The translations under genes were made by a program, and so were the position numbers. 64,000 nucleotides of DNA from Leisingera aquaemixtae (GTDB lineage: Bacteria > Pseudomonadota > Alphaproteobacteria > Rhodobacterales > Rhodobacteraceae), in the NCBI RefSeq assembly GCF_001458395.1, contig NZ_CYSR01000021.1, forward strand, positions 186,001 to 250,000, in the 5' to 3' direction. How positions within the stretch are numbered: position 1 is the first letter of the stretch; every line of letters starts with the position of its first letter. The notes beneath the pieces are model-generated. The model searched no databases, was not told the DNA's origin, and saw only the letters and a list, made by a program, of their open reading frames with translations. Positions 5,265 through 43,372 of the stretch are shown here, in pieces.

Positions 5265-5281
5265 CCCCTGGCCAGACAAAC

Positions 5282-5311: not shown

Positions 5312-5345
5312 CCGTTTCCAAAGCCCTGCGGGCTTCATCTTTCCA

Positions 5346-5395: not shown

Positions 5396-5430
5396 CCTAA
5401 TATCAAACCTGCGGGGCAGCGCCCCTCCCC

Positions 5431-5667
5431 TTACTGGTCCTCAGCGTCCGGGTCTGCCTGACCCACGCCGCGGAACACGAACTTGAACGGCAGCACCCAG
5501 ACGATGCCGAGGCCCACATAGACGATCAGTTCCAGCCACAGCGGCGGACGGTCCAGCCAGTTCATCACCGTGACCGCGGCCACGATATAGACCGGCATCC
5601 CGACCAGCAGGATGATCAAAGCCCAGCGCCGCCGGGCCTTGTAGCTCAGGCCTTGCTTCTCAGCCAT
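5431..5667 (-). CDS. DUF2842-family small membrane protein
   Basis: A 78-residue protein with a basic N terminus (LSYKARRRWA) and two hydrophobic segments (about residues 15-37 and 44-66), consistent with the DUF2842 family of alphaproteobacteria. Function unknown. Its ATG (CAT 5665-5667) overlaps the purA stop by one base (TGATG), so it is probably translationally coupled to purA and co-transcribed. Confidence 0.8.
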   Translation of the reverse strand: MAEKQGLSYKARRRWALIILLVGMPVYIVAAVTVMNWLDRPPLWLELIVYVGLGIVWVLPFKFVFRGVGQADPDAEDQ

Positions 5668-7665: not shown

Positions 7666-7992
7666 CTACAGCTTCACCGGCGCGCCATGCGGCGTCGACA
7701 GATAGGCCTCCTCCCAGCGGCTGCGCATCACTTCGGCCTCAGCGCGCGACGCGGCCCCCTGCTCCGCCAGGAACATCTCCAGCGTTTCCAGCCAGGCACG
7801 GAAGTAATCCTCGCCGCCATCCAGCTCGCGGCTCAGGCCGTGGCGCTTCAGCGTCGCGGAAAACCGCTCCACCCAGTCGGCCCAGCTGAACCGCCCGGCC
7901 TCATTCAGATGCACGGTCAGCGCAAAGACCTGCGCGTGCCAGGGTTCGGCAAAGACAGGCTCCGGCGCGGCAACCTCGGGACAGATACTCAT
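7666..7992 (-). CDS. Nitrile hydratase accessory (activator) protein
   Basis: A 108-residue protein of the nitrile hydratase accessory family, resembling the beta-subunit N-terminal fold (FAEPWHAQVFALTVHLNEAG, then FSWADWVERFSATL). In cobalt enzymes such small proteins deliver the metal to the alpha subunit; that role is inferred from family knowledge. Its ATG (7990-7992) overlaps the beta-subunit stop as ATGA, so it is the third gene of a coupled alpha-beta-accessory operon. A frame open further upstream lies inside the beta gene and is not used. Confidence 0.88.
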   Translation of the reverse strand: MSICPEVAAPEPVFAEPWHAQVFALTVHLNEAGRFSWADWVERFSATLKRHGLSRELDGGEDYFRAWLETLEMFLAEQGAASRAEAEVMRSRWEEAYLSTPHGAPVKL

Positions 7993-8666
7993 AGCGGCTC
8001 CAGATAGCTCTGCCACAGGTCCAGCACCACCTCGTCCTCCGGGTGCTCGGGATGCGCCCACAAAGCGCTGGCATGAAACCGCACCGCATAAAGCGGCTCC
8101 GGCGCCTCGCCCAGCCCATGCGCACTGCTGTCGGGGAAGACATGCGTGCCATGCAGCCGCAGGATATAACCCTGCGCCCCGGCGGCATAGGCAGGCAGCC
8201 GGGTGTGGCCGCCATCCACCAGCGCGTTATCCGCCGGTATCCGCGCCCGCACCGCCTGCCCGGGCGAGAACCGCGGCAGCGGCCCGCCCTCCCGGTCCGC
8301 CGGGCCGCCCTTGGCCAGCACCCCGGCAACATTCTCCGCCTTCAAGGCCCGCTCCGCCAGCTTATGCAGACCGGCGGCGCCCTTGCCCTCCAGATCCGCG
8401 CGCGTCAGCACGCCCTTCTCCACCAGCAGATCCGCCAGCGCCGCGATCCATTTCTCGTAATAGGAAAAGCGGGCGTAATCTTTGGGCGACAGCTTCTCGC
8501 GCGCATGGCGCGAGGTGTCGATGTTCCACTGGCCCAGCGCGCCGCAGGCCAGCGTCACCGCCAGGGCACGCGCGTGCCAGTCCTCGGCAAAGACCGGCGC
8601 GTCCTCCGCCTCGGGCGCCACCGGACCGTCGCCGAATCGCCCGCCCATGTCATGCACCCGGGTCAT
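7989..8666 (-). CDS. nthB: Nitrile hydratase, beta subunit
   Basis: The 225-residue partner of the alpha subunit in the enzyme that hydrates nitriles to amides. It opens with the typical beta N terminus [16 protein letters not shown] and includes the family stretch [20 protein letters not shown]. The C-terminal SH3-like domain contains [11 protein letters not shown] and HTRLPAYA, then [11 protein letters not shown]. The ATG at 8664-8666 overlaps the alpha stop (ATGA), which indicates translational coupling and equimolar expression. Confidence 0.95.
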
Positions 8667-9292
8667 GCCAGCGCCTCCCCCGGCACCTTGGCCAGGCCGG
8701 TGCCGATCATGCTGTCGCGGGTGACCAGCGCCGCCAGCTCCTCCTCGCCCAGGCTCTCCGAGCCTTCGGGCCGCGCCGGCAGCACAAGATAGCGGACCTC
8801 GGCGGTCGAATCCCAGACCCGCACCGCGCAGCTCTCCGGCAGCGTCACCCCGAACTCCGCCAGCACCTTGCGCGGCTCGCGCACCGCGCGGGCGCGGTAG
8901 GCGTCGGATTTGTACCAGCCCGGCGGAATGCCCAGCAAAGGCCACGGGTAGCAGCTGCATAAGGTGCACACGACCATATTGTGCTGCTGCGCTGTGTTCT
9001 CCACCACCACCATGTGCTCACCCTGGCGGCCGTAAAGCCCAAGCTCCGCCAGAACCGGATCGGCATCCGCCAAAAGCGCCGCCTTGAAATCCGGATCGCT
9101 CCAGGCGCGGGCCACCACCCGGGCGCCGTTTTGCGGGCCGATGCGGTTCTGGTAGGTGTCGATGATCTCCTCCAGCGCGGCGGGGTCGATCAGGCCTTTC
9201 TCGGTGAGAATCGTCTCCAGCGCCTTGACCCGCAAGGCAGGGTCTGGCGGCAGGAGGGCGTGCGGGTGGTCGTCGTGATGATCATGAGGCAT
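8663..9292 (-). CDS. nthA: Nitrile hydratase, alpha subunit, cobalt type
   Basis: The 209-residue metal-binding subunit. The active-site claw motif reads [11 protein letters not shown]. By family rules Thr in C-T-L-C-S-C and the following YPWP indicate a non-corrin cobalt centre, whereas iron enzymes have C-S-L-C-S-C. I start at [14 protein letters not shown] (CAT 9290-9292), because homology begins there and the upstream in-frame sequence is unrelated. The His-rich N terminus (HDHHDDHPH) could bind metal. It is first gene of the operon; secG is divergent 172 bp away. Confidence 0.95.
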
Positions 9293-9464
9293 GAAAAAAC
9301 TCTGCCCCGCGCCAAGGGCCTGCGTCCAGCCGCAAAACATTGGCGCGGCCGCCTCTGACTGCACGTCACAGCTGCTGCCCGGCATCAGGCAAACTCCGCC
9401 CTTGCCCCCCCGGGCAATCTTGCCTATTTACCGCCCGATACTCAGCCAACCGCCGCAGGGACCC

Positions 9465-9830
9465 ATGGAAAACGTTGTTCTCATCATCCATCTTCTTCTG
9501 GCTCTCGGCCTTATTGCCGTGGTGCTGCTGCAGCGCTCCGAAGGCGGCGGTCTGGGCATGGGCGGCGGCGGCGGCGGCGCCATCTCGGGCCGTGCGGCGG
9601 CCACGGCGCTTGGCAAGGTGACCTGGCTGCTGGCGATTGCCTTCATCTGCACCTCGATCACCCTGACCATCATGGCGGCGCAGAAATCCGCAGGCTCCTC
9701 GGTCACCGACCGGCTGGCGGCGCCGCAGTCCGAAGACAGCAGCGCACCAGCAGTGCCGGCACCGCTGGGCAGCGACCTGCTGCCGCCCAGCGAAGGCGAC
9801 AACGCGCCGCTGGTTCCCAGCGCCGACTAA
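9465..9830 (+). CDS. secG: Preprotein translocase subunit SecG
   Basis: A 121-residue inner-membrane subunit of the SecYEG translocon. Two transmembrane segments flank the conserved Gly-rich cytoplasmic loop (LLQRSEGGGLGMGG, then the second segment near WLLAIAFICTSI). A Pro/Ser/Ala-rich C-terminal tail is typical of alphaproteobacterial SecG. ATG 9465 follows a GCAGGG ribosome-binding sequence. A hairpin at 9856 separates it from pyrG; the secG-pyrG order is common in this group. Confidence 0.93.
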   Translation: MENVVLIIHLLLALGLIAVVLLQRSEGGGLGMGGGGGGAISGRAAATALGKVTWLLAIAFICTSITLTIMAAQKSAGSSVTDRLAAPQSEDSSAPAVPAPLGSDLLPPSEGDNAPLVPSAD

Positions 9831-9855
9831 CCTACTACACCTTGAGAGGGTTATA

Positions 9856-9882
9856 GGAACCGCAACAGCATCTTGCGGTTCC
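9856..9882 (+). terminator. Probable secG terminator hairpin
   Basis: GGAACCGCAA and TTGCGGTTCC form a perfect 10-bp stem with a 7-nt loop. The following T-run is weak, so it may be attenuating rather than fully terminating ahead of pyrG. Confidence 0.6.
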
Positions 9883-10002
9883 CTTGCGCATTTCGTGCGA
9901 ATCCTTTATATATGAAGTCCCGTGATGCTGCGGTTTTTGGAATGATTCCGATCACCGCCGGGCAGCTGAAATCTGACTTCTCACGGGGGCAGCCGAACAC
10001 AT

Positions 10003-11646
10003 ATGGCGCGTTTCATCTTTATCACTGGCGGTGTTGTTTCATCCCTGGGCAAAGGCCTGGCTTCGGCAGCACTGGGGGCACTTCTGCAGGCCCGCGGATA
10101 CTCCGTCCGCCTGCGCAAGCTGGACCCCTATCTGAACGTCGATCCGGGCACCATGAGCCCGTTTGAGCACGGCGAGGTCTTCGTCACCGACGACGGTGCC
10201 GAGACCGATCTGGACCTCGGCCATTACGAGCGCTTCACCGGCGTGCCCGCCCGCAAGACCGACTCGATCTCGTCGGGCCGGATCTACACCAACGTGCTGG
10301 AGAAGGAGCGCCGCGGCGACTACCTCGGCAAGACCATCCAGGTCATTCCGCACGTCACCAACGAAATCAAGGACTTCATCTCCATCGGCGAGGATGAGGT
10401 CGATTTCATGCTCTGCGAGATCGGCGGCACCGTCGGCGACATCGAGGGCCTGCCCTTCTTCGAGGCGATCCGCCAGTTCGCCCAGGACAAGCCGCGCGGC
10501 GAGTGCATCTTCATGCACCTTACCCTGCTGCCCTACATCAAGGCCTCCGGCGAGCTGAAGACCAAGCCGACCCAGCACTCCGTGAAGGAGCTGCGCTCCA
10601 TCGGCCTGGCGCCGGACATCCTGGTCTGCCGCTCCGAAGGCCCGATCCCGAAGAAAGAGCGCGAGAAGCTGGCGCTGTTCTGCAACGTGCGCCCGGATTC
10701 GGTGATTGCCGCGCAGGACCTCAAATCCATCTACGAAGCACCGCTGGCCTATCACCGCGAGGGCATGGACCAGGCAGTGCTGGACGCCTTTGGCATTGCC
10801 CCCGCCCCCAAGCCGAACCTGGAGCGCTGGGAAGATGTGGCCGACCGCATCTACAACCCCGAGGGCGAAGTGCGGGTGGCCATCGTCGGCAAATACACCC
10901 AGCTGGAAGACGCCTATAAATCCATCGCCGAGGCGCTGACCCACGGCGGCATGTCGAACCGGGTCAAGGTGCGGATCGAATGGGTCGATGCGGAGCTGTT
11001 TGACAAGGAAGACGCCGCCCCGCACCTGCAGGGCTTCCACGCGATCCTGGTGCCCGGCGGCTTTGGCGAGCGCGGCACCGAGGGCAAGATCAAGGCAGCC
11101 CAGTACGCGCGCGAAAACAAGGTGCCGTACCTCGGCATCTGCCTCGGCATGCAGATGGCGGTGATCGAAGCCGCGCGCAACGTGGCAGGCATTGCCGAGG
11201 CGGGGTCGGAAGAGTTCGACCACGAGGCTGGCAAGAAGCGCTTTGAACCCGTTGTCTACCACCTCAAGGAATGGGTGCAGGGCAATATGACGGTCGAGCG
11301 CAAAGTGGGCGACGACAAAGGCGGCACCATGCGCCTGGGCGCCTATGACGCGACCCTGGCCGAAGGCTCCAAGGTGGCCGAGGTCTATGGCAGCACCCAT
11401 ATCGAGGAGCGCCACCGCCACCGGTATGAGGTCGACACCAAATACCGCGAGCAGCTGGAAAAATGCGGCCTCACCTTCTCCGGCATGTCGCCGGACGGCC
11501 GCCTGCCGGAAATCGTGGAGTGGACAGACCACCCGTGGTTCATCGGCGTGCAGTTCCACCCGGAGCTGAAATCCAAACCCTTTGCGCCGCACCCGCTGTT
11601 CGACGGTTTCGTGCGCGCCGCGAAAGAGGCGTCGCGGCTGGTCTGA
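10003..11646 (+). CDS. pyrG: CTP synthase
   Basis: Amidates UTP to CTP using glutamine. The 547-residue length is standard. The N-terminal synthetase domain starts [18 protein letters not shown] with its P-loop. The Mg/regulatory stretch [20 protein letters not shown] follows. The C-terminal class I glutaminase carries PGGFGERG, the nucleophile motif GICLGMQ and the late FHPELKS with its catalytic His and Glu. ATG 10003 follows about 170 bp after secG. A double hairpin terminator lies downstream. Confidence 0.98.
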
Positions 11647-11715
11647 GGGATCGCGCGGCAGGCGGAATTCTCCCGCCCGTCGCCTGCGCATGGCACATGC
11701 GCGGCTCCCGTTGGG

Positions 11716-11778
11716 CCCAGCGCCGCCAAGGCGGCGCTGGGAGAAAGCAGAAAAAGGCGGGCCGCTGGCCCGCCTTTT
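11716..11778. terminator. Double-hairpin terminator between convergent pyrG and the DUF983 gene
   Basis: First stem CCCAGCGCCGCC / GGCGGCGCTGGG (11716-11741). Second stem AAAAGGCGGGCC / GGCCCGCCTTTT (11752-11778), with A and T runs on either side, so it can work in both directions. Confidence 0.85.
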
Positions 11779-11806
11779 GCATTTTGATTGATTGAAGGCG
11801 GGCGGC

Positions 11807-12187
11807 TCAGAAGCCGTGCATCCGCTTGGCCCATTGATAGGCCACCACCAGCCCCTTCATCCGCGGCAGCATGATCAGCGAGGCCCCGACGGTGATCACC
11901 GACATGATGATCGCCAGCGTCCAGGGGTCCGGGCGCAGCTGGGTGTAGACGATGTGCAGCGCAAAGCCGAGGATGTGGCCGACCACCAGAATGGTCAGAT
12001 AGGCCGGGCCGTCATCAGCGCGCTGGTGGTGCAGCTCCTGGCCGCACTCGGTGCAGCTGTCGTTCACCTTCAGGTAGCTGTGCAGCAGCTTGCCGCCGCC
12101 GCAGTTCGGGCAGCGCAGCTGCACCCCCTTCAGCAAGGCGGGCTTCAGCTCCCGCGGCTCCTGTTCGGCTAGATCAATCCCGGTCAT
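11807..12187 (-). CDS. DUF983-family membrane protein with zinc ribbon
   Basis: A 126-residue protein. An N-terminal zinc-ribbon-like domain (RCPNCGGGKLL, then DSCTECG) is followed by HHQRADDGPAYLTIL and two membrane segments, the usual DUF983 layout. Function unknown. The start MTGIDLAEQEP (CAT 12185-12187) has an AAGGAGA ribosome-binding site; an upstream Met codon overlaps the operator region and is unlikely. It converges with pyrG and diverges from the MocR regulator. Confidence 0.88.
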   Translation of the reverse strand: MTGIDLAEQEPRELKPALLKGVQLRCPNCGGGKLLHSYLKVNDSCTECGQELHHQRADDGPAYLTILVVGHILGFALHIVYTQLRPDPWTLAIIMSVITVGASLIMLPRMKGLVVAYQWAKRMHGF

Positions 12188-12235
12188 CGCGGCGTCTCCT
12201 TGGGTTTGCCGCCTGATACCGCGATTCCGCAATTG

Positions 12236-12290
12236 AATGCAAACAATATGCAATCATTGATATTGCATTTAATGCCATACTGATGCATTG
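12236..12290. promoter_or_regulatory. Candidate operator cluster for the adjacent MocR regulator
   Basis: In an unusually AT-rich gap, ATGCAAT (12248-12254) and ATTGCAT (12262-12268) form a perfect 7-bp inverted repeat. It is flanked by further half-sites AATGCAA (12236) and TGATGCATTG (12281). Clustered ATGCA half-sites in a divergent promoter are what MocR/GntR proteins commonly bind. The link to this regulator is inference. Confidence 0.55.
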
Positions 12291-12333
12291 AACCAATCAT
12301 TCACGACACAAAACGGCCCCAGGAGGCACCGCG

Positions 12334-24822: not shown

Positions 24823-24843
24823 AAAAAGCCGCCCCCGAGGGAG
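24823..24843. terminator. Left half of an intrinsic terminator split by transposition
   Basis: AAAAAGCCGCCC plus the duplicated loop CCGAGGGAG. Its partner arm GGGCGGCTTT lies 9.2 kb away at 34041-34050. Joined, they form a 10-bp stem with an 8-nt loop and T-runs on both sides: a bidirectional terminator between the secreted-protein gene and efp. Confidence 0.85.
24835..24843 (+). repeat. Target-site duplication, left copy (9 bp)
   Basis: CCGAGGGAG immediately precedes the left terminal inverted repeat. The identical nonamer immediately follows the right one at 34033-34041. Confidence 0.95.
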
Positions 24844-24868
24844 TGACGCATTCCGTGTGGTGGGACAC
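24844..24868 (+). repeat. Left terminal inverted repeat (25 bp)
   Basis: Begins TGACGCATTCCG and ends TGGTGGGACAC. It matches the right end (34008-34032) at all 25 positions in inverted orientation; similarity stops abruptly at base 26. Confidence 0.97.
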
Positions 24869-24877
24869 GCTTACAAC

Positions 24878-24915
24878 AAACCCTGTCGCGCAAGTCGCGG
24901 CAGGGTTTTGTTTTT
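24878..24915 (+). terminator. Inward-facing terminator at the left end of the element
   Basis: AAACCCTGTCGCG and CGCGGCAGGGTTT form a 13-bp stem (one G-T pair) with a 5-nt loop, then TTGTTTTTG. It would stop host transcripts entering from the left. Confidence 0.85.
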
Positions 24916-24960
24916 GAATGGAAAAATGACGTGCAGATGCTGGTGTAAAAACGCGAAAAT

Positions 24961-24980
24961 CCCGAGAAAATTTTCTCGGG
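24961..24980. promoter_or_regulatory. Perfect 20-bp palindrome upstream of the transposase
   Basis: CCCGAGAAAATTTTCTCGGG is fully self-complementary. It lies about 220 bp before the transposase start and could be an operator or a transposase subterminal binding site. Confidence 0.5.
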
Positions 24981-25001
24981 CGCCGCAAGCGGTCACTCGA
25001 T

Positions 25002-25036
25002 GCGAAAAAAAGTTTGATCGAACCAAACATTTTCGC
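25002..25036. promoter_or_regulatory. Imperfect inverted repeat upstream of the transposase
   Basis: GCGAAAAAAAGTTTG and CAAACATTTTCGC are near-perfect inverted copies around ATCGAAC. This is a second candidate protein-binding site in the left end. Confidence 0.4.
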
Positions 25037-25202
25037 TTCTGATTTTCAAAATAGAGCCAATATCCCTCGGTCACAAGCTTGATGTTCGCAGTGGTGCGGA
25101 ATCCACGGATTTTCTTCCGTGACCACTCCAAATTGCGCGTGGTTTCTGCTTTCTGATCGGAAAAAACGACTCGAGGCGGAACCGCGAAGATCTGAGGTTC
25201 CG

Positions 25203-27596
25203 ATGGCAGGCTTGGCTACATTCAACTTCAAACTCTCGCAGCTTTACCCAGGCTCAGGCGAGCACAAGCTCAACACCTGCGGCAATCCGGACTGCTCCAA
25301 CTTCGGTCATCCAATGACGGAGCGCGCGGCGCGGCGGGAACTCTGGCGATCAAAGCGGCCGGACCTCACTCCAGAACAGCTCAAGCTCTATGAGACCAAT
25401 GGTCCTGGCGCTTACAAACTGGCTGGCTCCAAGGCGAAGCATCTTCGCGTTTCCAGCGCATTCCAGTTCGATGGCAATCCTCACGAGTGGTCAGATCAGC
25501 GGACCATTCGGTGCCTCGGTCAGACACGGGATGGCTCACCATGCAAATCAGGTTTCTCAATCCTCTCCCCGGCCCATCTGGCGGAAGAGGTCGACCGGTT
25601 GCGGAACTACAATGGCGTCCTCGACGGACCTTCGTGCGGCGCTTGCGGGGTGCGTCTTCTCGACAAACCTGACGAGTTTGCACTGAATGGCGCTCATGAA
25701 AGAACAAAGGACCGGGATGGCAAGCCTGCCAAAAGAAACGCCGCTCCAAAATCCATTCGGGTGGTGCACAAACCGTGCAAGGGCAAGAAAGGCGCGCGCT
25801 TTTCTGTGTCCTTGCCTCATGCCGGGCAAAAGAACACCGCGGACAACCTTCGCATCCTCGGTGCAGTCCTGAACAGCGCAGGTATCATTGACATTCAGAG
25901 AACCCTAAGCATTGCGACCGGCAAAAGCATCGGCATGTCCCGCATCTACGATCGCATCGCCTGGTTCGAGGAGGTATACCTTGCCTACGAGCGCGAGATG
26001 CTGCGCCGCTGGAAGGCAAAGATCGAAAAGAGCGGCGAGTTGATCGAACATCGCCTCAGCCATGATGACATGGTTCTGACAGTGAACTGGGAAACCGCGG
26101 CAGACCGGCGGAATACCCAGTTGAACTGCGCGGTCACTGCCGATGCACGTAGCGGTTACGTGTATCGGCTCGATGTTGATTTCGATCCCAGGGCTGCACC
26201 CCTTGATGTTTTCAACTCGACTTATCTGGACGAAGAAGGGCAGCCTCAAAACCTCTCGCAAGAATACCCCGGGAGTAAGGTCGCATCGGCGCCGAAGTTT
26301 TCATGGCAGCGCCCAACTGGCCGGTTTCATGAAAGCCAGTTCTTTGGGGCCTGCGTGAACGAGATCCGAGCGTTCCAGATATGTGCCAAGCGGCGGATGC
26401 CAAAGAGGACGAAGGATCAGCAGGACGAACGCAAAGAGATCATGGACCGCACCGACGGCATGATCGCCAAGATCCGCGAGATCTCCGAAGGTTGGTTTGG
26501 GTTCCCCTTCGATGACACCGATGAACGGGGATCGTTCAAGGGCGTCACCACCCGGGACACTTACACGAAGGGGGCGCACTTCATCCTGCTGAAGGAGATG
26601 CTGCCTTACGGCTCAATAGTCCTGACGACGGAACAGGAGGCAACACTTCCACCTCTGCTGCCTCATATATTCGACCAGGAGATCCGCGAGAACCGCTTCA
26701 CCTGGCTTGCGATGTCATTCAATAAGAAGGCGACAAAGCCGGAAAGACAGAGGCTGGTCAACGGCTATCGCCGCGCACGGAAGAAGTTCCGCGACAAAGG
26801 ATTATATAACGGCCGGTTTGATCCGGACACGGACGAGCAAGCGATCACAGAAGCGTTTATCGCCAGCGGCCTCTCAACAGCCCTTCGGGGCACTTCGTCG
26901 CCGTTTCAGATATCCAACTATAAAATCAGAAGCTTTCCGGGCCTGTGGGTGAAGTCGCCAACTGAGGCAAGCGGTGAGATCGGCAAGGTGGTTGGATTTC
27001 CAATCGTGCCCCGCCCGCTCCGCCAAACCCTCAAGCAGGTTCCATTCGACCAGGAACAGCTCGATGCCGACCTGCGGAGAGAATTGGCGCCGCTGGTTTA
27101 CAAGGCGACCTTTCAACCCGTTAGCAGCTTCATGAATTCACTGCGCACGCGCCTCAGCGTTGCGGACCGGGCCGGCAGCGGTGGCGCACGCGTTGGCGGA
27201 ACCTACATTCAAGGGGCAATCTTCAATCCGAAGATCCTGGTTTCAATCCTCAACATCTACCGGGTCCACTACAACTTCTTCGAGGAGCGCAGCTATGCGT
27301 GCCCATATGCAGAGATTGACGACCTGATCGACCCGCCGGTGATGATACAGAGGGCGATGCCGATACCTGGGACGGATGAATTCGTCGACCTCCCTCCAAA
27401 ACCAAGGCGGGTGCCTGCCAAGAAGACGCCGGCCATGCGGCATGGCATGGATGCCTTCACCAAGAAGAAGGATGGCTCCGAGGTGCCCCCTGACCTCTAT
27501 CGAGTGCTGTATCGTCCGTGGCTCTACATGGGGACCAAGCTCGGTGCCCGCTTCGAGCGGTCTCGCGGCAAGAGACGACAGTCCCAGGCGGACTGA
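25203..27596 (+). CDS. Large IS1-like transposase homologue
   Basis: A 797-residue protein, far larger than IS1 transposase. The N-terminal 200 residues hold zinc-ribbon-like Cys pairs (CGNPDC near 26-31, CGAC near 145-148, C104 and C114). A helix-turn-helix-like segment follows (225-255: IDIQRTLSIATGKSIGMSRI). An RNase-H-like core starts near 291 (VLTVNWE, then AVTADARSGYVYRLDVDFDP). The C-terminal MNSLRTRLSVA...FNPKILVSILNIYRVHYN resembles the IS1 tail. The DDE acids are not obvious: Asn295 sits where the first Asp is expected. I start at ATG 25203 (GAGG site); a GTG at 25119 lacks one. Confidence 0.72.
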   Translation: MAGLATFNFKLSQLYPGSGEHKLNTCGNPDCSNFGHPMTERAARRELWRSKRPDLTPEQLKLYETNGPGAYKLAGSKAKHLRVSSAFQFDGNPHEWSDQRTIRCLGQTRDGSPCKSGFSILSPAHLAEEVDRLRNYNGVLDGPSCGACGVRLLDKPDEFALNGAHERTKDRDGKPAKRNAAPKSIRVVHKPCKGKKGARFSVSLPHAGQKNTADNLRILGAVLNSAGIIDIQRTLSIATGKSIGMSRIYDRIAWFEEVYLAYEREMLRRWKAKIEKSGELIEHRLSHDDMVLTVNWETAADRRNTQLNCAVTADARSGYVYRLDVDFDPRAAPLDVFNSTYLDEEGQPQNLSQEYPGSKVASAPKFSWQRPTGRFHESQFFGACVNEIRAFQICAKRRMPKRTKDQQDERKEIMDRTDGMIAKIREISEGWFGFPFDDTDERGSFKGVTTRDTYTKGAHFILLKEMLPYGSIVLTTEQEATLPPLLPHIFDQEIRENRFTWLAMSFNKKATKPERQRLVNGYRRARKKFRDKGLYNGRFDPDTDEQAITEAFIASGLSTALRGTSSPFQISNYKIRSFPGLWVKSPTEASGEIGKVVGFPIVPRPLRQTLKQVPFDQEQLDADLRRELAPLVYKATFQPVSSFMNSLRTRLSVADRAGSGGARVGGTYIQGAIFNPKILVSILNIYRVHYNFFEERSYACPYAEIDDLIDPPVMIQRAMPIPGTDEFVDLPPKPRRVPAKKTPAMRHGMDAFTKKKDGSEVPPDLYRVLYRPWLYMGTKLGARFERSRGKRRQSQAD

Positions 27597-27731
27597 CGAA
27601 GAGGAAATGCGTGCAACTGATGGGAATGCCTTGGCTTCCCCACGCGCGCAAGGTTAGGTTGATTTGAATCTGGATTTCCATCGTAAAGAGGCTTTTCCTA
27701 ACTGTTTTGGGAACAACCCGCCGAGTAAAGC

Positions 27732-30434
27732 ATGAACCCCACCGAGATTTCCGACGCCCTCGAGGCTATTTCAACAGCGCCATTTGATCCGGCCGAGTTT
27801 GGCTATGACTTCGCCGCCGCCACGGGCAATGCAAAAGCTACAGTGTCCAGGCTCCGCCCGGGCAAGCGAACTCTGAATAAATCGAAGATCTCAGGCGCGG
27901 TCCTGATGAACCGCCGTTTTTATTACATTCCGGCGGAGCTTGGTCAGGCAGATGCAGCCATGGAGCTGCTGCTTTCGGACAAGAAAACCATCCAACACAA
28001 GCCGGAGATTTTGATTGCAACCGACGGCCAGGATGTGGTCGCGCGACATCCTGCATCGGGCGATACACTGCGCTGCTCCTTCGTCGACCTTCACCACCAT
28101 TTTGGCTTCTTCCTGCCCGCCGCGGGCATGACACGGTTCAAGGCCGCGGAAGAAAACGAGGTCGACATCAAGGCCACCGGCAAGCTGGCCAAACTCTACG
28201 ACGCACTGATCAAAAAGAACCCCGACTGGGCAACTGAAGATCGGCGCCATGACCTCAACCAGTTCATGACCCGGATGATCTTCTGCCTCTTCGCCGAGGA
28301 TGTTGGGATTTTCCCAAAGGATCAGTTCAGCCGGCTAATCGTCAACCATTCCGGCGAAAAAGGCGTCGAGGCACACCTGGTGATCCGCGATGCCTTCGCT
28401 GCGATGAACCTGCCAAAGGACGGCCGCGCCCATCTTCCTGCCTGGACGCAGGAGCTGGAATACGTCAACGGCGGATTGTTCTCGGGTCAGCCGGATTGCC
28501 CTGTTTTCGATCCCATCGCCTGGGGCTACCTGCTGGATGCGGCGGGTGAGGATTGGCGCAAGATCAACCCCGACATCTTCGGCTCCATGATCCAGTCGAT
28601 TGCTGACGCAAAGCGGCGCAGCGAGTTGGGGATGCACTACACCTCTGTGCCGAACATCCTGAAAGTGCTGGGTCCACTTTTCCTGGACGATTTGGATGCC
28701 GCCATCGAGAAAGCCTGGGACCGGCCCAATTCGCTGGAAAAGCTACTGACCCGGCTCGGTCGCATCCGGGTTTTTGATCCGGCCTGTGGGTCGGGTAACT
28801 TCCTGGTGGTTGCTTACCGGCAACTGCGTGAGCGGGAAATGAAGGTGATGAAGCGCCTGGTGGATTTGACCGGGCAATCCCTGATGAAGTTGAGTTCGAC
28901 CCTCAGCCTGTCGAGCTTCCATGGGATCGAAATCACTGATTTCGGTGCCGAAACCGCAAAACTTGCCCTGTTCATTGCCGAATACCAGGCCAACGCTGAA
29001 ATGTCTGAGATGTTCGGGGCCGCGACCGAAACGCTGCCCTTGCGCGACGGCGGCCATATCGTTTGCGCAAACGCTCTGCGGGTGGACTGGCAGACGGTTT
29101 GCCCTCCGCCGAAGGGCGAAGAAGAAGTGTATATTGCGGGCAACCCGCCGTTTTTAGGGTCCAACTATCAGTCAAAAGAACAGAAGGTCGATCTTGCCAA
29201 CGTGTTTACCGGCAAGATTAAAAGTTTTGCGGCCTTCGATTTTGTCGCGGCATGGTTTTACAAGGCCGCAGCGTTCATTCGCGGGCGGAGGTGCAAGGCC
29301 GCTCTGGTGGCGACCAACTCTGTTTGCCAAGGCTATTCTGTCGCCGCACTGTGGCCGCATGTTTTGGGGAGTGACCTGGAAATCGGCTTTGCCCACAAAG
29401 ATTTCAAATGGCGCAACAACGCGTCATCTAATGCTGCTGTCATCTGTTCGATTGTGGGGCTTCAGCCAAAATCAACGGCACTCAAACGGCTGTTCTCGGA
29501 TGGTGTAGAAACACCCAGCGATCGCATCAACGCCTATCTGGTGAATGGGCCCGAAACCTATGTGGAAACAGAACGCAAAAGCCTTTTCGACCTTCCATTC
29601 ATGTGCAAGGGAAACCAGCCAACAGACGGCGGCGGCCTGATCCTAACACAGGAGGAACGCGACGACCTGTTGGCGGAGAATCCGGATGCCGCGCAGTTTC
29701 TATATAAGTTTGCAGGTTCGCAAGAAATCGTGCGGGGATTCACCCGATATTGCCTATGGATCGAACAAAGCCAAGCGGACGACGCAGCCTGGATTAAACC
29801 GATTGGCAGGCGTATCGAGGCCGTGCGTCAGTTTAGGCTGGCCAGCGCCAAGGCACGCACCCGCGACATGGCCCTGCGGCCGTTTGAATTTGATGAAATC
29901 CGGGTGCGGCCTGGTAAATCATCAATCCTGGTTCCCAGCGTGACTTCGGAGCGTCGCCCATACCTGCCGGTGGATATGGTCGGGGCGGATGTTATTCCTT
30001 CCAACCTCAATTTCGCCCTCTACGACGCCCCGGAATGGTGCCTTGCGCTGATTGCCTCCCGCCTGCATCTGGTCTGGATCGGCACCGTCTGCGGCAAGCT
30101 GAAATCGGATTTCCGCTATTCCAACACCCTGGGCTGGAACACCTTCCCAGTGCCTCGGTTTACCCCAGGCCAGCTGGAGCAGTTCGACGCCTCGGCGCGG
30201 ATGATCCTGAAGACGCGCTACATGCATCACCCCAAGACCATCGCTGAGCTCTACGACCCTGACAAGATGCCAGATGACCTGCGCGAAGTGCATCGTCAGA
30301 ACGATGAGCTTCTGGAAAGCATGTATATCGGCCGCCCCTTCCGCAATGACACCGAGCGCTTGGAAAAACTGTTCAAACTCTATGCCGCCCGCGTCGAGAA
30401 GCTGAAATCAGAACCGAAGAAGGGAGCTGCCTGA
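27732..30434 (+). CDS. MmeI/YeeA-like N6-adenine DNA methyltransferase
   Basis: A 900-residue class I SAM-dependent enzyme. The SAM-binding motif RVFDPACGSGNFL (about 346-358) and the catalytic amino-methyltransferase motif NPPF (471-474) are intact. Upstream, the MmeI-type helical spacer is clear (MTRMIFCLFAEDVGIF, then RRSELGMHYTSVPNIL). The region after about 600 is a target-recognition domain of the same class, with NTLGWNTFPVPRF near its end. The N-terminal 130 residues lack a PD-(D/E)xK motif, unlike single-chain MmeI restriction enzymes, so cleavage probably resides elsewhere. The stop overlaps the helicase start (TGATG). Confidence 0.9.
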   Translation: MNPTEISDALEAISTAPFDPAEFGYDFAAATGNAKATVSRLRPGKRTLNKSKISGAVLMNRRFYYIPAELGQADAAMELLLSDKKTIQHKPEILIATDGQDVVARHPASGDTLRCSFVDLHHHFGFFLPAAGMTRFKAAEENEVDIKATGKLAKLYDALIKKNPDWATEDRRHDLNQFMTRMIFCLFAEDVGIFPKDQFSRLIVNHSGEKGVEAHLVIRDAFAAMNLPKDGRAHLPAWTQELEYVNGGLFSGQPDCPVFDPIAWGYLLDAAGEDWRKINPDIFGSMIQSIADAKRRSELGMHYTSVPNILKVLGPLFLDDLDAAIEKAWDRPNSLEKLLTRLGRIRVFDPACGSGNFLVVAYRQLREREMKVMKRLVDLTGQSLMKLSSTLSLSSFHGIEITDFGAETAKLALFIAEYQANAEMSEMFGAATETLPLRDGGHIVCANALRVDWQTVCPPPKGEEEVYIAGNPPFLGSNYQSKEQKVDLANVFTGKIKSFAAFDFVAAWFYKAAAFIRGRRCKAALVATNSVCQGYSVAALWPHVLGSDLEIGFAHKDFKWRNNASSNAAVICSIVGLQPKSTALKRLFSDGVETPSDRINAYLVNGPETYVETERKSLFDLPFMCKGNQPTDGGGLILTQEERDDLLAENPDAAQFLYKFAGSQEIVRGFTRYCLWIEQSQADDAAWIKPIGRRIEAVRQFRLASAKARTRDMALRPFEFDEIRVRPGKSSILVPSVTSERRPYLPVDMVGADVIPSNLNFALYDAPEWCLALIASRLHLVWIGTVCGKLKSDFRYSNTLGWNTFPVPRFTPGQLEQFDASARMILKTRYMHHPKTIAELYDPDKMPDDLREVHRQNDELLESMYIGRPFRNDTERLEKLFKLYAARVEKLKSEPKKGAA

Positions 30435-32497
30435 TGGTCGATCTCATCAAAATGACCTATGGCTCCAAGGGCGGGCCGCGCTCAAACGCGCTGGGAATGC
30501 GTGAAATGCAGGCCCGCGTTTACGAGGCCCGCGCCGCGCAATTCATTCTACTGAAAGCGCCACCTGCTGCCGGCAAATCCCGCGCGCTGATGTTCGTGGC
30601 ACTCGACAAGTTGGAAAACCAAGGGGTGAAGAAGGCCATCGTCGCGGTGCCGGAAACCTCGATCGGCGGATCATTCAAGTCAACCGACCTGACCAGTTTT
30701 GGTTTTCATCGGGACTGGGTGGTGAATGAACGGTGGAACCTTTGCCTGTCCGGCGAGGAAGGTAAGGCCAAAGCCCAGAAGGTGAAGACCTTTGAGGACT
30801 TCATGGGTTCGGAAGACGAAGTGATCGTCTGCACCCATGCCACCTTCCGTTTTGCTTTCGAGGAGATCGTCGCCAAACGCGGCATCGAGGCGTTTGACGA
30901 CTGCCTGATAGCCATTGATGAATTCCACCATGTAGCGGCCAGTGATGACAACCGTCTGGGGGAAATCCTGCGCCGCCTTCTGAACCGCGAAAAGGCGCAT
31001 GTCATGGCTATGACCGGCTCCTACTTCCGTGGCGACAGCGTGCCGGTCCTACGCCCTGAGGATGAGGCCAGGTTCCGCTCGATCACCTATTCCTATTACG
31101 AGCAGATCGAGGGCTATGAGCACCTGAAGTCTCTGGGGATTTCCTACGCCTTCTACCGGGGGCGTTACATCTCGGCGATCAAGGATGTTCTGGACACCGA
31201 TCTCAAGACCATCATCCATATCCCGCATCGCGGCTCGGCCGAGGCCTTTGGCGAAAAGCACGATGAAGTTGGAAAGATCTATGACGCCATCGGTGAACAT
31301 ATCGGCCACGATCCGGAAACCGGCTTCGACCTGGTGCGACGGGAGGATGGGCGTGTTCTGAAAATCGCCGATCTGGTCGACGACGGCCCAGAGAGGGACG
31401 GCGTCAAAGCTGCCCTGCAAGCTGAGATCCAGGGAGAGGACGGCAAACGCGACGATGCCGCTGACCGGGCCAAGGTTGATTTGATCGTGGCGCTTGGCAT
31501 GGCGAAAGAAGGTTTCGACTGGGTCTGGTGCGAACACGCCTTGACCATCGGATACCGAAACAGCCTGACCGAGATCGTGCAAATCGTGGGCCGAGCCACT
31601 CGTGATGCGCCTGGAAAATTCCACGCCCAATTCACAAACCTTGTCGCTGAGCCCGGCGTGGAAACCACCGTTGTTGCGGACGCTGTGAACGATATGCTCA
31701 AGGCGATCTCAGGTGCTCTGCTAATGGAGCAAGTGCTGGCGCCCAACTTCCGCTTCTACCGGAGAGAGGACGGCGATATCCGGGAACCGGTGCATGTTGA
31801 CAAGGAAGGCCGCGTTAACATTGGTATCGGCGGGCTTCTGGAGCCGCCCACGCCGCGGGCTCGGGCGATCGTCGAGGATGACATGCAGGATCTGGTCGCC
31901 AAGGCCTGCCAAGCCATGGACCGGCGCGTGGTTGCCGATGATGTGGCCCCCGAAGTGGCGACACAGTTGGTGCTGACCGAAATTGTCGAGAAAAGCTACG
32001 AGAATCTGACCGCCGAGGAAACTGAAGCGATCCGTCAGGATCTGGCCGCTCGGATGAACCTGATTGGAATGGCGAAACGTCACGAAGATAATCCCGGGTT
32101 CAACGACCAGGCCGAGGCGTTCAATGGGAAAAATGAAGAGGACGGTGATGGACCTAACCATTCGCTTCTCAACATGGTGAAGCGCTTCATCAATGTGCGC
32201 GAGTTGGACATTGACCTGATCGACTCGATCAACCCTTTTCGCGAAGGGTTTGACGTCGCATCCCGTGCCTTTGATGCGCCGCTGCTAAAGAACATTCAGA
32301 GCGCAATGGTCGCGCAACGCATTCAAATGTCTGAAGACGAGGCTCTTGTCCTGTGGCCTCGCATTAAGCGCTTCACAAAGCAAGAGGGGCGTGCACCCAA
32401 TCCGCATTCGGAAGATCCGCTTGAGAAGCGGCTTGCAGAGGCGCATGCCTATGTTCGCGCAAAGAAAGCGGAACGCCTCCGCGCCGCGGCGGTTTGA
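30434..32497 (+). CDS. DEAD/DEAH-box superfamily 2 helicase
   Basis: A 687-residue ATPase. The P-loop KAPPAAGKSRA lies near residue 40 and the DEAH-like box AIDEFHH near 155. MAMTGSY is motif III. The second RecA domain has LIVALGMAKEGFDWVWC and the arginine-finger motif QIVGRATRDAPGK near 385. The C-terminal 250 residues are helical, with no known nuclease. Translation is coupled to the methyltransferase (one-base overlap). It probably translocates DNA or remodels the complex, as helicase subunits do in type I/III/ISP restriction and in DISARM/BREX; its exact role here is inferred. Confidence 0.88.
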   Translation: MVDLIKMTYGSKGGPRSNALGMREMQARVYEARAAQFILLKAPPAAGKSRALMFVALDKLENQGVKKAIVAVPETSIGGSFKSTDLTSFGFHRDWVVNERWNLCLSGEEGKAKAQKVKTFEDFMGSEDEVIVCTHATFRFAFEEIVAKRGIEAFDDCLIAIDEFHHVAASDDNRLGEILRRLLNREKAHVMAMTGSYFRGDSVPVLRPEDEARFRSITYSYYEQIEGYEHLKSLGISYAFYRGRYISAIKDVLDTDLKTIIHIPHRGSAEAFGEKHDEVGKIYDAIGEHIGHDPETGFDLVRREDGRVLKIADLVDDGPERDGVKAALQAEIQGEDGKRDDAADRAKVDLIVALGMAKEGFDWVWCEHALTIGYRNSLTEIVQIVGRATRDAPGKFHAQFTNLVAEPGVETTVVADAVNDMLKAISGALLMEQVLAPNFRFYRREDGDIREPVHVDKEGRVNIGIGGLLEPPTPRARAIVEDDMQDLVAKACQAMDRRVVADDVAPEVATQLVLTEIVEKSYENLTAEETEAIRQDLAARMNLIGMAKRHEDNPGFNDQAEAFNGKNEEDGDGPNHSLLNMVKRFINVRELDIDLIDSINPFREGFDVASRAFDAPLLKNIQSAMVAQRIQMSEDEALVLWPRIKRFTKQEGRAPNPHSEDPLEKRLAEAHAYVRAKKAERLRAAAV

Positions 32498-32507
32498 GGT
32501 AGGAAAC

Positions 32508-33764
32508 ATGGCGAGATACAGGTCACTCGATGAAATCTTTGACGAGGAAGATGAGCTCGGCCTTCTGAAAAATGTGAAGCCCAGAAGGCCTGCTTCCTCG
32601 ACGCCCGATGATCGAAATGCGGAAATCGTCGCTGAAGTAAATGCATTCTATGAAGCCCATGGTCGCCTGCCGGATGAAGGTGGGCAGACCATCGAAGAAA
32701 TGAAACTGGGGACGATTTGGCAATCCATTCGTGGCATGCCTACAGAGGCTATGCTCGCAGCAGACAAAAACCGGCTTTTGGGGTATGGAGTTCCTGTAAG
32801 CGAATTTGCTTTTGAGAAAGAAACCACTGAGGTGCCTCAGGAGCCGTCTTGGCGAGATGAACCTGAAGATGAGGCTGTGCCATCCAGCCTCGACGATATC
32901 TTCGCGGAAGACGACGAAGATTTTCCTGAAGCTGTAATCGGTCTAAGGCATGTCACGCCGGCGGCAGAGAGGGAGCAGCCAAGTCACCGTGCGGACATGT
33001 TCCCCTGTTCTGATTTCCAACTATTCGAGCAGGGCTTTATCGACATGCAAGCCAAACTGGAAACTGGCGAACGTGATGTCAGCCCCATTGAAGACCGGCA
33101 AGAACTGCGGATCAACGAGGGTGACTTTATCATTCATCGCGGGTTGCTTGCCTACATAGCCGAAAAGACTGAACACACCCGCCGCGGAGGGAAGCCAGAT
33201 CAACGCCTCAGGATAATCTTTTCCAACGGCATGGAAAATGACCCCCTTGTCTCCTCTCTGCGCAAAGCCCTCGCGGCAGATAAAACAGCCCGCTATATTC
33301 ACAGGCCAGGCCTTGGCCCTCTCGACCCTGAATGGGAAGAGGACGCTTTGGAGCTGACCGGCACCATTTATGTGGCGCGCAGCAAGTCTGAGCGCCCTGA
33401 AATAAAAGAGGTTCGTCACATCCTGCACAAGATCGGTGTAACGTCTCAGGACGTTCGACGCCGAGTGGCAGACGCGCGCAATGATGCAACCTTTCTACTT
33501 GCCGATGTAGATATCGTTGCAACCTACGAACTGCGAAATCTTTCCAGAATGAAGATCGAAGATCTGCTTCACAGGTTCTTTGATGCTGCCCGTCCTTCTG
33601 GCCTGACCATAACAGACCGCTTTGGAAAAAAGGTCTTCCCTCGGGAGTGGTTTTATGTCCTTCCCGAACATGTGGCTGAAGCGGTCAAGCTGATCCAGGA
33701 TGGAACCATGCATCTCTATCGTTACGATCCGACTGTTCAAAAGATCGAAAGGATCGAGGATTGA
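32508..33764 (+). CDS. GIY-YIG-type nuclease (T5orf172-like), putative effector
   Basis: A 418-residue protein. The C-terminal third is a GIY-YIG domain of the T5orf172/Mug113 kind: GTIYVARS (285-292), HKIGVTSQDVRRRV (307-320) with the catalytic Arg, and KIEDLLHRFF (349-358) with the metal-binding Glu, ending REWFYVLPE. The N-terminal half is acidic and carries two copies of an SLD-E/D-IF motif (6-11 and 127-132). ATG 32508 has an AGGTAGGA site 10 bp after the helicase stop, so it belongs to the same operon. It is the likely DNA-cutting component. Confidence 0.85.
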   Translation: MARYRSLDEIFDEEDELGLLKNVKPRRPASSTPDDRNAEIVAEVNAFYEAHGRLPDEGGQTIEEMKLGTIWQSIRGMPTEAMLAADKNRLLGYGVPVSEFAFEKETTEVPQEPSWRDEPEDEAVPSSLDDIFAEDDEDFPEAVIGLRHVTPAAEREQPSHRADMFPCSDFQLFEQGFIDMQAKLETGERDVSPIEDRQELRINEGDFIIHRGLLAYIAEKTEHTRRGGKPDQRLRIIFSNGMENDPLVSSLRKALAADKTARYIHRPGLGPLDPEWEEDALELTGTIYVARSKSERPEIKEVRHILHKIGVTSQDVRRRVADARNDATFLLADVDIVATYELRNLSRMKIEDLLHRFFDAARPSGLTITDRFGKKVFPREWFYVLPEHVAEAVKLIQDGTMHLYRYDPTVQKIERIED

Positions 33765-34007
33765 AAGCATAACGCGCCGATGATCGGTAAGTATCTCTCA
33801 AATGCAAGGGCTTCGTTCGATCACACCAAAAATCTACGACTTGCAGCGGAGAGCAGCAACCAGGCGAAGCAGCCTAAAGTTTCGGGACCGGAGCCTCTTC
33901 CGCAAACGCCGATCATAAGCCCATGTGATGATTTATAAAAAACTGCGCCCCTGTGAGGGGCGCAGCGATGTCTGTTTTTCACAGTAGGTTTAAGATAGCT
34001 CCGGCCA
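33765..34007. other. Right subterminal region of the element
   Basis: About 240 bp with no gene. It contains the inward-facing terminator at 33937-33965 and small inverted repeats (GCCGATGATCGG near 33778 and CGCCGATCAT near 33907). Confidence 0.5.
33937..33965 (-). terminator. Inward-facing terminator at the right end of the element
   Basis: Read on the minus strand, CTGCGCCCCT-CAC-AGGGGCGCAG is a perfect 10-bp stem followed by TTTTTT. It now terminates efp transcripts that enter the element. Confidence 0.9.
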
Positions 34008-34032
34008 GTGTCCCACCACACGGAATGCGTCA
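34008..34032 (-). repeat. Right terminal inverted repeat (25 bp)
   Basis: Plus-strand sequence begins GTGTCCCACCAC and ends GGAATGCGTCA, an exact inverted copy of 24844-24868. Confidence 0.97.
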
Positions 34033-34041
34033 CCGAGGGAG
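34033..34041 (+). repeat. Target-site duplication, right copy (9 bp)
   Basis: CCGAGGGAG, identical to 24835-24843. It is followed by GGCGGCTTT, the second arm of the disrupted terminator. Confidence 0.95.
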
Positions 34042-34074: not shown

Positions 34075-34638
34075 TCAGGCGCGCTCGGAATACTCCATGG
34101 TCTCGGTGTTGACCACGATCATCTCGTCCTGGCCGACAAACGGCGGCACCATCACCTTGACGCCGTTCTCCAGGATCGCGGGCTTGAAGGAGTTTGCCGC
34201 GGTCTGGCCTTTGACGACCGGCTCGGTCTCGACGATCTTGCAGGTGACTTTCTGCGGCAGGGTCGCGTTCAGCGCCTCGGACTCGTGGAATTCCACCACG
34301 ATGGTCATGCCGTCCTGCAGGAACGGGCGGCGGTCGCCCAGAAGCTCTGCCGGCAGTTCGATCTGCTCGTAGGTTTCGGCGTCCATGAACACCAGCATGC
34401 CGTCGCTCTCATAGAGGAACTGCTGGTCTTTCTGCTCCAGACGCACCTTCTCGACCTTATCGGCGGAGCGGAACCGCTCGTTCAGTTTGGAGCCGTTGCG
34501 CAGGTTGCGCATCTCGACCTGGGCAAAGGCGCCGCCCTTGCCGGGTTTGACGTGATCGACCTTCACCGCTGCCCAAAGGCCGCCATTATGTTCCAGGACG
34601 TTGCCGGGGCGGATTTCATTGCCGTTGATCTTGGGCAT
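34075..34638 (-). CDS. efp: Translation elongation factor P
   Basis: A 187-residue three-domain OB-fold protein that rescues ribosomes stalled at polyproline. The start [18 protein letters not shown] and domain I loop [17 protein letters not shown] are typical; the Lys in KPGKGGAF is the residue modified in many bacteria. The signature [17 protein letters not shown] is in domain III. CAT at 34636-34638 is the start. Its own downstream terminator was interrupted by the mobile element, which ends 42 bp after the stop. Confidence 0.97.
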
Positions 34639-42619: not shown

Positions 42620-43372
42620 TCAGAGCATCACAATCCCCTGTGGGTTCACCGACGATGCGTTCTTATTCAGTACTGGATCAAGTCTATTGAAGTAATTTTT
42701 GGCAGACTTCTTCTTGATGTATGCATTTGGGTCCAGTTTCTGATGAAGAAAGTAGGCGCAGACATCACAGGACTGAATACCCAGGGAAGTTTGCGAGTCT
42801 CTTTCGCTTGGGTCTTCTATAACTCTATGAATTGGTATGTTACGATACCCGCCACCAAACCTATTTGGCACCGGATTATAGACGCTCTTCTTTCGAACAA
42901 GCTGAGTTAACTTTTTTCCTGACGTTGCGTCCGTATAAACCTTTCCGAAGGATCGCTTGTAGCCACCAGGAAAGTTTCCATGTGTTAGTGTGTTCTCGAA
43001 CCGCTGGAACAAAGTACGCCAAGCAGAAGAAAACACATCGTATCCAGAGGGTTTCCCCTGCTTATCAACAACAATGTTCGTAACAGAAATTGTATTCATC
43101 TTGGCAAGCTCATCGAGGTAATTTCTTAAAATCGCCAATCGGTCATGTTTCGCGATGCCAAACTTGTTTTTCCTAATCATCTCTACTGCATGCAACTCAC
43201 TGCGGAGAGGCAACCCATAAACACCGCGCATAGTTCTTCTAAAAGACACCAACCCATCAATGAACTGCCGCCACTCACTCTCGTGAACTACGATGGCACT
43301 CAGGCAAAAGTACCTAGTTTGCAAAACATTGTTGCCGGGATCACCACTTTCATCAACATACATAAGATACAT
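42620..43372 (-). CDS. DUF3800-domain protein
   Basis: A 250-residue protein with the DUF3800 signature YVDESGDPG at the N terminus (RNase-H-like acidic residues) and FCLSAIVVHESEW shortly after. QSCDVCAYFLHQKLDP matches the C-terminal family motif near the last acidic residue. The domain occurs in accessory and prophage regions and is suspected to be a nuclease. The gene is AT-rich and codon use differs sharply from both neighbours, so it was probably transferred. No partner gene is adjacent. Confidence 0.85.
   Translation of the reverse strand: MYLMYVDESGDPGNNVLQTRYFCLSAIVVHESEWRQFIDGLVSFRRTMRGVYGLPLRSELHAVEMIRKNKFGIAKHDRLAILRNYLDELAKMNTISVTNIVVDKQGKPSGYDVFSSAWRTLFQRFENTLTHGNFPGGYKRSFGKVYTDATSGKKLTQLVRKKSVYNPVPNRFGGGYRNIPIHRVIEDPSERDSQTSLGIQSCDVCAYFLHQKLDPNAYIKKKSAKNYFNRLDPVLNKNASSVNPQGIVML

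Follow-up and report, generated by a model that had tools for sequence, protein, structure and literature searches.

A dnmA-yeeB-yeeC cluster as cargo of a probable DDE-type transposon in a split host terminator of Leisingera aquaemixtae

The closest described relative of the genes reported here is the dnmA(yeeA)-yeeB-yeeC cluster of Bacillus subtilis and other bacteria, described in two reports (Nye et al. 2020, PMC7261158; a 2023 mBio article, PMC9973331). DnmA of B. subtilis, which shares 38% identity with MmeI, produces N6-methyladenine (m6A) at GACGAG; it was grouped with MmeI homologues in which the nuclease motif is missing and which have yeeB- and yeeC-like genes on their flanks (PMC7261158). 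The order dnmA-yeeB-yeeC is conserved across bacterial species (PMC9973331). As cited in both reports, Morgan suggested in 2009 that the cluster is a Type I-like restriction-modification (RM) system, and Makarova et al. placed yeeB and yeeC homologues among putative antiphage genes. Names of the yeeA/B/C type are used as well for genes beside blaOXA-23 in Acinetobacter (PMC9258068, PMC3691203). Here, we analyse a stretch of 64,000 nucleotides from Leisingera aquaemixtae (contig NZ_CYSR01000021.1, positions 186,001 to 250,000; hereafter the window), in which three adjoining genes for a methyltransferase, a helicase and a nuclease (the trio) represent this known cluster, here apparently intact. 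We consider it likely that the cluster travels as cargo of a probable DDE-type transposon belonging to a family of which we found no description.

The transposon covers positions 24844-34032 of the window (9,189 bp) and holds four genes, a transposase and the trio. Its parts, together with the adjacent host gene, are listed below by window coordinate. The host gene is presumably efp (elongation factor P).

24835-24843, no strand: left copy of the target site duplication (TSD), CCGAGGGAG, within the efp terminator loop; present as a single copy at the empty site of relative L076
24844-24867, + strand: left terminal inverted repeat (TIR), 24 bp, TGACGCATTCCGTGTGGTGGGACA, from the repeat search, with related TIRs in relatives
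24878-24908, + strand: inward-facing hairpin resembling an intrinsic terminator, inside the left TIR, score 19.0, with a T-rich tail at 24909-24916
25119-27596, + strand: transposase P0001, 825 aa, GTG start uncertain, with a probable RNase H-like core
27611-33769, + strand: cargo module with DNA similarity to the trio at locus L127 of genome G208 (blastn, 27611-29446 and 29916-33769)
27732-30434, + strand: methyltransferase of MmeI type, DnmA/YeeA homologue, m6A-forming by family, 900 aa (Pfam, PDB match)
30434-32497, + strand: superfamily 2 (SF2) helicase/translocase, YeeB homologue, 687 aa (Pfam, motifs, relatives in plasmids and genomes)
32508-33764, + strand: MUG113/T5orf172 (GIY-YIG-like) nuclease, YeeC homologue, 418 aa (Pfam, residues kept in 17 homologues)
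33943-33965, - strand: inward-facing hairpin resembling an intrinsic terminator, inside the right TIR, score 17.5, T-run on the - strand at 33942-33935, facing the efp transcripts
34009-34032, - strand: right TIR, 24 bp, from the repeat search
34033-34041, no strand: right copy of the 9-bp TSD, CCGAGGGAG
34075-34638, - strand: efp, the host gene whose terminator was the target (open reading frame, ORF; DNA match in 21 of 21 genomes of the genus, own included)

The inverted repeats detected by the repeat search match in 26 of 26 nucleotides (24843-24868 and 34008-34033), and once the 9-bp TSD is set they leave a perfect TIR of 24/24 bp. They enclose the transposase ORF and the trio. The operon is indeed mobile, as a first-pass annotation of the window had proposed. 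Outside the element, the left flank AAAGCCGCCC pairs with the right flank GGGCGGCTTT, which means that the terminator hairpin of efp is split by the insertion. For comparison, the efp site was fetched from 19 same-genus relatives, with G202 left out. In all 19 an uninterrupted hairpin lies beside efp, with a stem of at least 8 in 17 and of 7.5 in two, and the TIR core is absent from the efp locus in all 19. The closest relative, L076, carries exactly the two flanks of the window with one copy of the duplication, that is, an empty site. Taken together, TIRs, TSD and the empty site in relatives identify 24844-34032 as a DNA transposon.

The terminator habit is shared by related elements. The sample consists of 26 elements, namely the window element and those 25 of 50 P0001-type genome-contig loci for which a script identified a pair of TIRs; the remaining 25, which were fragments, ran into contig ends or showed no clear pair, were excluded ahead of the counts. 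Their common TIR resembles TGACGCATTCCGnnnnGTGGGACA, with variants, and that of L050 differs. Duplications of 9/9 are seen in 20 of the 26, and of 8/9, 7/9 and 6/9 in L037, L057 and L036, respectively, while none is convincing in L022, L027 and L039. When the sites are reconstructed, a stem of at least 8 is centred on the insertion point in 22 of 26 cases, as opposed to 1736 of 36,331 (4.8%) roughly intergenic positions of the same loci, "intergenic" denoting positions left uncovered by long ORFs. Element ends were refined within 3 nt in favour of TIR and TSD match, and the inverted-repeat scoring could slightly favour palindromic flanks; before the ends of three elements were adjusted, the count was 21 of 26 against 257 of 10,204 (2.5%) random positions.

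As a competing explanation, there may be no terminator targeting as such: the elements could follow a loose sequence motif, or any intergenic insertion might survive best between convergent genes. We regard this as possible, though considerably less probable than not. Terminators in these genomes share A-run and GC-stem sequences, so that sequence and structure are confounded, and two elements of the more distant P0005 type discussed below (L131 and L133) sit at weak stems of 6 and 6.5. On the other hand, the TSD sequences vary widely across the family while the insertion stays centred on a hairpin, at a frequency (22 of 26) far above the 4.8% of the roughly intergenic positions. Moreover, an A-run of at least 3 on the left combined with a T-run of at least 3 on the right is found at 16 of 21 sites (those with a TSD of 8/9 or better) and at 40 of 1233 controls.

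The second common feature is located inside the ends. Of the 52 ends, 45 have a terminator-like hairpin that faces inwards and lies no more than about 170 nt from the end, compared to 12 of 1000 control windows. In our reading, these inner hairpins replace the host terminator that the insertion breaks and also insulate the element; they may have a role in transposase binding, too. In the window, the splitting of the hairpin by an insertion in its loop and the presence of one inward hairpin at each end are directly visible. With the end hairpins in place, transcripts of the flanking genes would again terminate and host transcripts would be kept from entering the element; the insertion would thus cost the host little. 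Such a low cost would suit an element that carries defence genes over long periods. For Tn916, too, a terminator close to the end of the element is described as an insulator against transcription (PMC11658703); Tn916 differs in being a conjugative element, and insertion into terminators goes unmentioned in the consulted part of that report.

The transposase P0001 has no match in Pfam (E <= 1), NCBIfam, PADLOC or PHROG, and thus no Pfam membership among transposases or IS256. By eye, its N-terminus appears zinc-finger-like. An AlphaFold model computed from 23 sequences reaches a mean pLDDT (predicted local distance difference test) of 74.8 and a pTM (predicted template modelling score) of 0.79. 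The best Foldseek matches of the model are ISCth4 (E 7.8e-3, probability 0.95), Mu, TnsB of a CRISPR-associated transposon (CAST) and, lower, RAG1. ISCth4 is a member of the IS256 family. Residues D316, E505 and E620 are invariant in the 23 P0001 sequences and align with D, D and E of the P0005 transposase (hhalign), which makes them a plausible candidate catalytic triad. P0001 differs from ISCth4, Mu, TnsB and RAG1 in its 825 aa, in lacking a Pfam match, in its terminator-loop target and in its second acidic residue, which is E (D in P0005). Since no Foldseek match reaches E 0.001, the assignment to the RNase H/DDE class is likely, short of proven.

P0001 was not found in 72,556 plasmid records. 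It matches in 9 of 198 genomes of the family, own included, and many of these matches are fragments or contain stops; the own genome holds a single copy. In a quick look with profile A2 at 385 genomes of the class, with few candidates scored per genome, the own genome was the sole match at E <= 1e-10. Judged by name, 46 of the 50 P0001-type loci are of Rhodobacterales type, three are labelled "Alphaproteobacteria bacterium" and one is a Salinarimonas fragment, so the type looks largely confined to the Rhodobacterales.

A second vehicle of the trio was found as well. The copy in genome G355 is decayed, with the methyltransferase in two ORFs and stops in the helicase. It is carried by a different element (L128, about 4005-12298), which has a TIR of its own, a duplication of 9-10 bp and, again, a split terminator. 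The transposase of this element, P0005 (616 aa), is distantly homologous to P0001 (about 22% identity; hhalign probability 97.9, E 6e-13). A search of 292 genomes of the order yielded it once, whereas 112 plasmid records hold relatives of it, those of Enterococcus, Staphylococcus and Vibrio among them. We examined the ends of L128 and of five plasmid loci. Exact duplications of 9-10 bp are present in L128, L131 and L133, the last two being those at weak stems; L132 and L134 lack an exact TSD and lie on hairpins with stems of 10 and 10.5, and no convincing TIR pair was found in L136 from Vibrio. The P0005 type resembles the P0001 type in its distant homology, its TIRs, its duplications and a trio copy in a split terminator (L128), and differs in the sequence of its TIRs and in its broader spread in plasmids. 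Of the five loci with TIRs, three are at terminator sites. Thus, the P0001 type shows a strong preference for terminators, and the wider group a mixed one.

With respect to cargo, 11 of the 26 P0001-type elements carry the transposase or its remains alone, and 15 carry more. Besides the window, 13 relatives were scanned, with Pfam on 20 cargo ORFs and PADLOC on 14. Recognisable defence systems are present in six of the 15 cargo-bearing elements (raw count). Next to the window element, these are a type I RM system with HsdM, HsdS and HsdR (L060, 12705-19260), a cyclic oligonucleotide-based antiphage signalling system (CBASS) with phospholipase, cyclase and E2 (L042, 12530-15473), a second CBASS (L051, 12676-15520) assigned by identity to the L042 ORFs (299/326, 332/399 and 170/225; 75-92%) rather than by domain scan, PD-Lambda-1 (L054, 12384-13841), and an NsnA/PD-T4-2-like GmrSD_N protein with a RiboL-PSP HEPN partner (L039, 12511-14122). 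Two weaker candidates were left uncounted, one in L024 (SLFN_AlbA_2; PADLOC PDC-S50, E 1e-4) and one in L028 (HEPN below the Pfam cut-off). In the P0005 type, L132 (8866-18989; a Polaromonas plasmid, split terminator) carries a Mokosh-like MkoC protein together with an HNH protein.

From these observations we lean, by a small degree, towards a general picture in which the P0001/P0005 superfamily targets terminator hairpins, carries replacement terminators, and shuttles defence systems between genomes, one complete system at a time (dnmA-yeeB-yeeC, type I RM, CBASS, PD-Lambda-1, Mokosh-like); such a "terminator swap" would make insertion near-neutral. Several observations count against our main reading, in which the trio is cargo of a probable DDE-type transposon inserted in a terminator. 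The hairpin test failed at four of the 26 sites (L022, L027, L039, L050), and folding energy separates sites from controls less well (mean -27.1 vs -18.0 kcal/mol, with 5.4% of controls reaching the site mean). The Foldseek matches to transposases are weak. Non-defence cargo is carried, too: mer-like in L064, metabolic in L037 and L050, and genes of no recognised identity in L038, L040 and L062. The trio itself also occurs outside this transposon, in G208 and on plasmids.

The mer-like region of L064 (9745-13785) resembles mercury resistance in that it encodes a flavin reductase according to Pfam and, judged by eye, small Cys-rich proteins and a MerR-like regulator.

In the consulted literature, ISfinder lying outside the search, no description of this transposon family or of terminator targeting of this kind was found. 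The terminator-inserting P0001-type family thus looks new, in combination with a trio that is known. A transposon that homes to terminators and replaces them would explain how defence systems enter compact genomes without breaking genes, and its target rule would allow such elements to be found via split terminators.

We now turn to the trio itself. The ORF list confirms the arrangement reported by the first-pass annotation, three genes on one strand in which the A of the methyltransferase stop TGA is the A of the following ATG (TGATG overlap) and the helicase is separated from the nuclease by 10 bp. The proposed families, and with them the distribution of modification, motor and nuclease over separate chains, are borne out by Pfam and by intact motifs in the three ORFs. 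The methyltransferase matches five MmeI domains, namely the methyltransferase domain (E 1.5e-100; residues 326-588), the target recognition domain (TRD; E 1.6e-79; 606-809), the N-terminal domain MmeI_N (E 1.2e-23; 1-161), the helical spacer and the C-terminal domain. Its motifs I (DPACGSGNF) and IV (NPPF) are present. The helicase is detected by DEAD (E 1.1e-6) and ResIII (E 3.8e-5), both weak and above cut-off, and shows Walker A (APPAAGKS), DExH (DEFH) and motif VI (QIVGRATR). The nuclease matches MUG113 (E 3.4e-11) and T5orf172 (E 3e-8), and Y288, K308-T312, R319, E351, H355 and E380-F382 are near-invariant among 17 homologues, with at most one deviation. Against PDB, nothing below E 0.13 was found for the YeeC homologue with phmmer, the best matches being calmodulin-like.

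Searches of plasmids and genomes show how regularly the three genes occur together. In a tblastn search with the helicase, 263 of 72,556 plasmid records match; the match spans at least 80% of the query in 154 and stays below 60% identity in 261. At E <= 1e-50, 33 of the 292 genomes sampled from the order, own included, hold the helicase. Among 29 other fetched loci, the nuclease follows the helicase in 28, and the 29th stops at a contig end. Methyltransferase sequence precedes the helicase in 21 of the 29, with at most 1.5 kb fetched upstream. Two plasmids were examined, and both have the trio annotated in the same order. Given these recurrences, the grouping is not due to chance. PF20473 matches in 7 of 14 control genomes, B. 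subtilis being among the seven.

A PDDEXK_4-type gene lies between dnmA and yeeB in two of the 29 loci (L108, 168-1481; L118, 4423-5010); it was considered as a fourth part of the system and rejected, a homologue being found in just these two. Several other loci also show a gap between dnmA and yeeB. A WYL-domain regulator is located upstream of dnmA in L130 (5228-6088) and L072 (3210-4073), a place taken by the transposase in the window.

Set beside the published description of B. subtilis, the window trio agrees in its three families, their order, an MmeI-like methyltransferase without PD-ExK and a horizontally acquired context, and differs in residing on a TIR transposon with frames and motifs intact (PMC7261158, PMC9973331). 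With MmeI and type IIL enzymes it shares the N-terminal, helical, methyltransferase, TRD and C-terminal domains according to Pfam, and presumably protection by m6A on a single strand; it lacks a conserved nuclease site in the methyltransferase chain and has helicase and nuclease in genes of their own. Type I and type III RM systems combine an ATP-driven motor with a nuclease that depends on the modification or specificity subunit, and by analogy the trio would work in a similar way. Unlike them, it joins specificity and methylation in one chain without HsdS, and it has the motor and a GIY-YIG-type nuclease on separate chains. Methylase_S, HsdM_N and HSDR_N are unmatched in the trio (Pfam).

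Going by the families, DnmA would mark self DNA with m6A on one strand of a short asymmetric site. Unmodified sites would engage YeeB, which would translocate and bring YeeC to cut, so that incoming phage or plasmid DNA would be destroyed and the host protected. A swap of the region in which most of the TRD lies would change the recognition site. A defensive role of the operon, as favoured in the first-pass annotation, is probable.

A close relative of the trio provides indirect support. Genome G208, of the same genus, holds the trio at another location, and DNA similarity to the window is limited to the cargo. Within the 18 kb fetched around the G208 trio, transposase similarity is absent, and no convincing TIRs were found around it. 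Compared in blocks of 50 residues, the two DnmA proteins are 96-100% identical up to residue 450, 48-60% in 451-750, 90% in 751-850 and 100% in 851-900. The divergence takes in most of the TRD together with the end of the methyltransferase domain. With the rest mostly at 96-100%, this fits selection on recognition, and it is what an RM system pressed to change its site would be expected to leave. The trio as such is of modest value. It appears to be intact, and its close sister departs from it mainly in the TRD and its surroundings; with this natural specificity-swap pair it can be tested whether the cluster ever works as an RM system, which the B. subtilis studies did not settle.

In G208, a GmrSD-type restriction gene adjoins the trio (L127, 4797-6725), suggestive of a defence island.

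Alternatively, the trio could be an orphan methyltransferase next to a dead restriction module, in which DnmA methylates and affects expression and YeeB and YeeC are inactive relics. Transformation assays and phage tests in B. subtilis led to this conclusion there (PMC7261158, PMC9973331), and the results obtained speak against restriction by the cluster: plasmid transformation was unaffected (PMC7261158), three Bacillus phages were not restricted, the cluster being called a "nonfunctional relic", and the DnmA site shows no depletion in phage genomes (PMC9973331). The weak Pfam support for the helicase is a further point of this kind. For the window, we consider a relic rather unlikely. Its frames and catalytic motifs are all intact, while YeeB and YeeC of B. 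subtilis are reported to be short of C-terminal stretches (PMC9973331), and the confined divergence of DnmA from its G208 sister likewise disagrees with a dead module. In Vibrio crassostreae, deletion of dnmA or yeeB leads to higher sensitivity to some phage subclades, a finding of others cited in PMC9973331.

That the methyltransferase is a single-chain type IIG/IIL enzyme with unrelated neighbours is very improbable. Such an enzyme is suggested by the one strong match of the trio in PADLOC (2023 models), REase_MTase_IIG with E 5.3e-270, by PDB entry 5hr4 of MmeI (phmmer E 1.8e-145, alignment starting at residue 119) and by the MmeI_N match. Despite this N-terminal domain, a conserved PD-(D/E)xK site was not found in the methyltransferase by pattern search and alignment of seven homologues. 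The single pattern match, D74..D83xK85, is lost in five of the seven and retained in two, the window protein and its G208 sister. When residues 1-173 are compared with PDB, MmeI is absent among the matches at E <= 10 (phmmer), and in relatives the methyltransferase gene is followed, in a conserved order, by those for helicase and nuclease. The layout of type ISP, with nuclease, motor, methyltransferase and TRD in one polypeptide, does not apply to separate ORFs. In the four genes of the element, neither Pfam nor PADLOC matches the parts of BREX (bacteriophage exclusion) or DISARM (defence island system associated with restriction-modification), i.e., PglZ-type phosphatase, BrxC and DrmA/DrmB with DUF1998; the PADLOC matches of the methyltransferase to PglX and DrmMI are partial and far weaker than IIG. 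The annotation was thus right in separating the trio from BREX, DISARM, type ISP and type IIL.

Its suggestion of a new, undescribed defence system is the least credible of all: PADLOC 2023 has no model for the set and finds the helicase (best PbeA, E 3.3e-5) and the nuclease (best PDC-S57, E 1.1e-4) weakly, yet the same set is in print as dnmA-yeeB-yeeC in PMC7261158 and PMC9973331, which cite the proposal of 2009. The claim of novelty, which the annotation itself had tied to the lack of a match to a named system, is hence refuted in substance, although the consulted sources contain no formal RM-type name. The strong match of PADLOC to the methyltransferase alone, as type IIG, helps to explain why the cluster can look unnamed.

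Elsewhere in the window, a second stretch of low GC content at about 42-44 kb contains a DUF3800 gene (42620-43372) and is possibly another small mobile insertion. The neighbour of this gene is presumably lepA-like.

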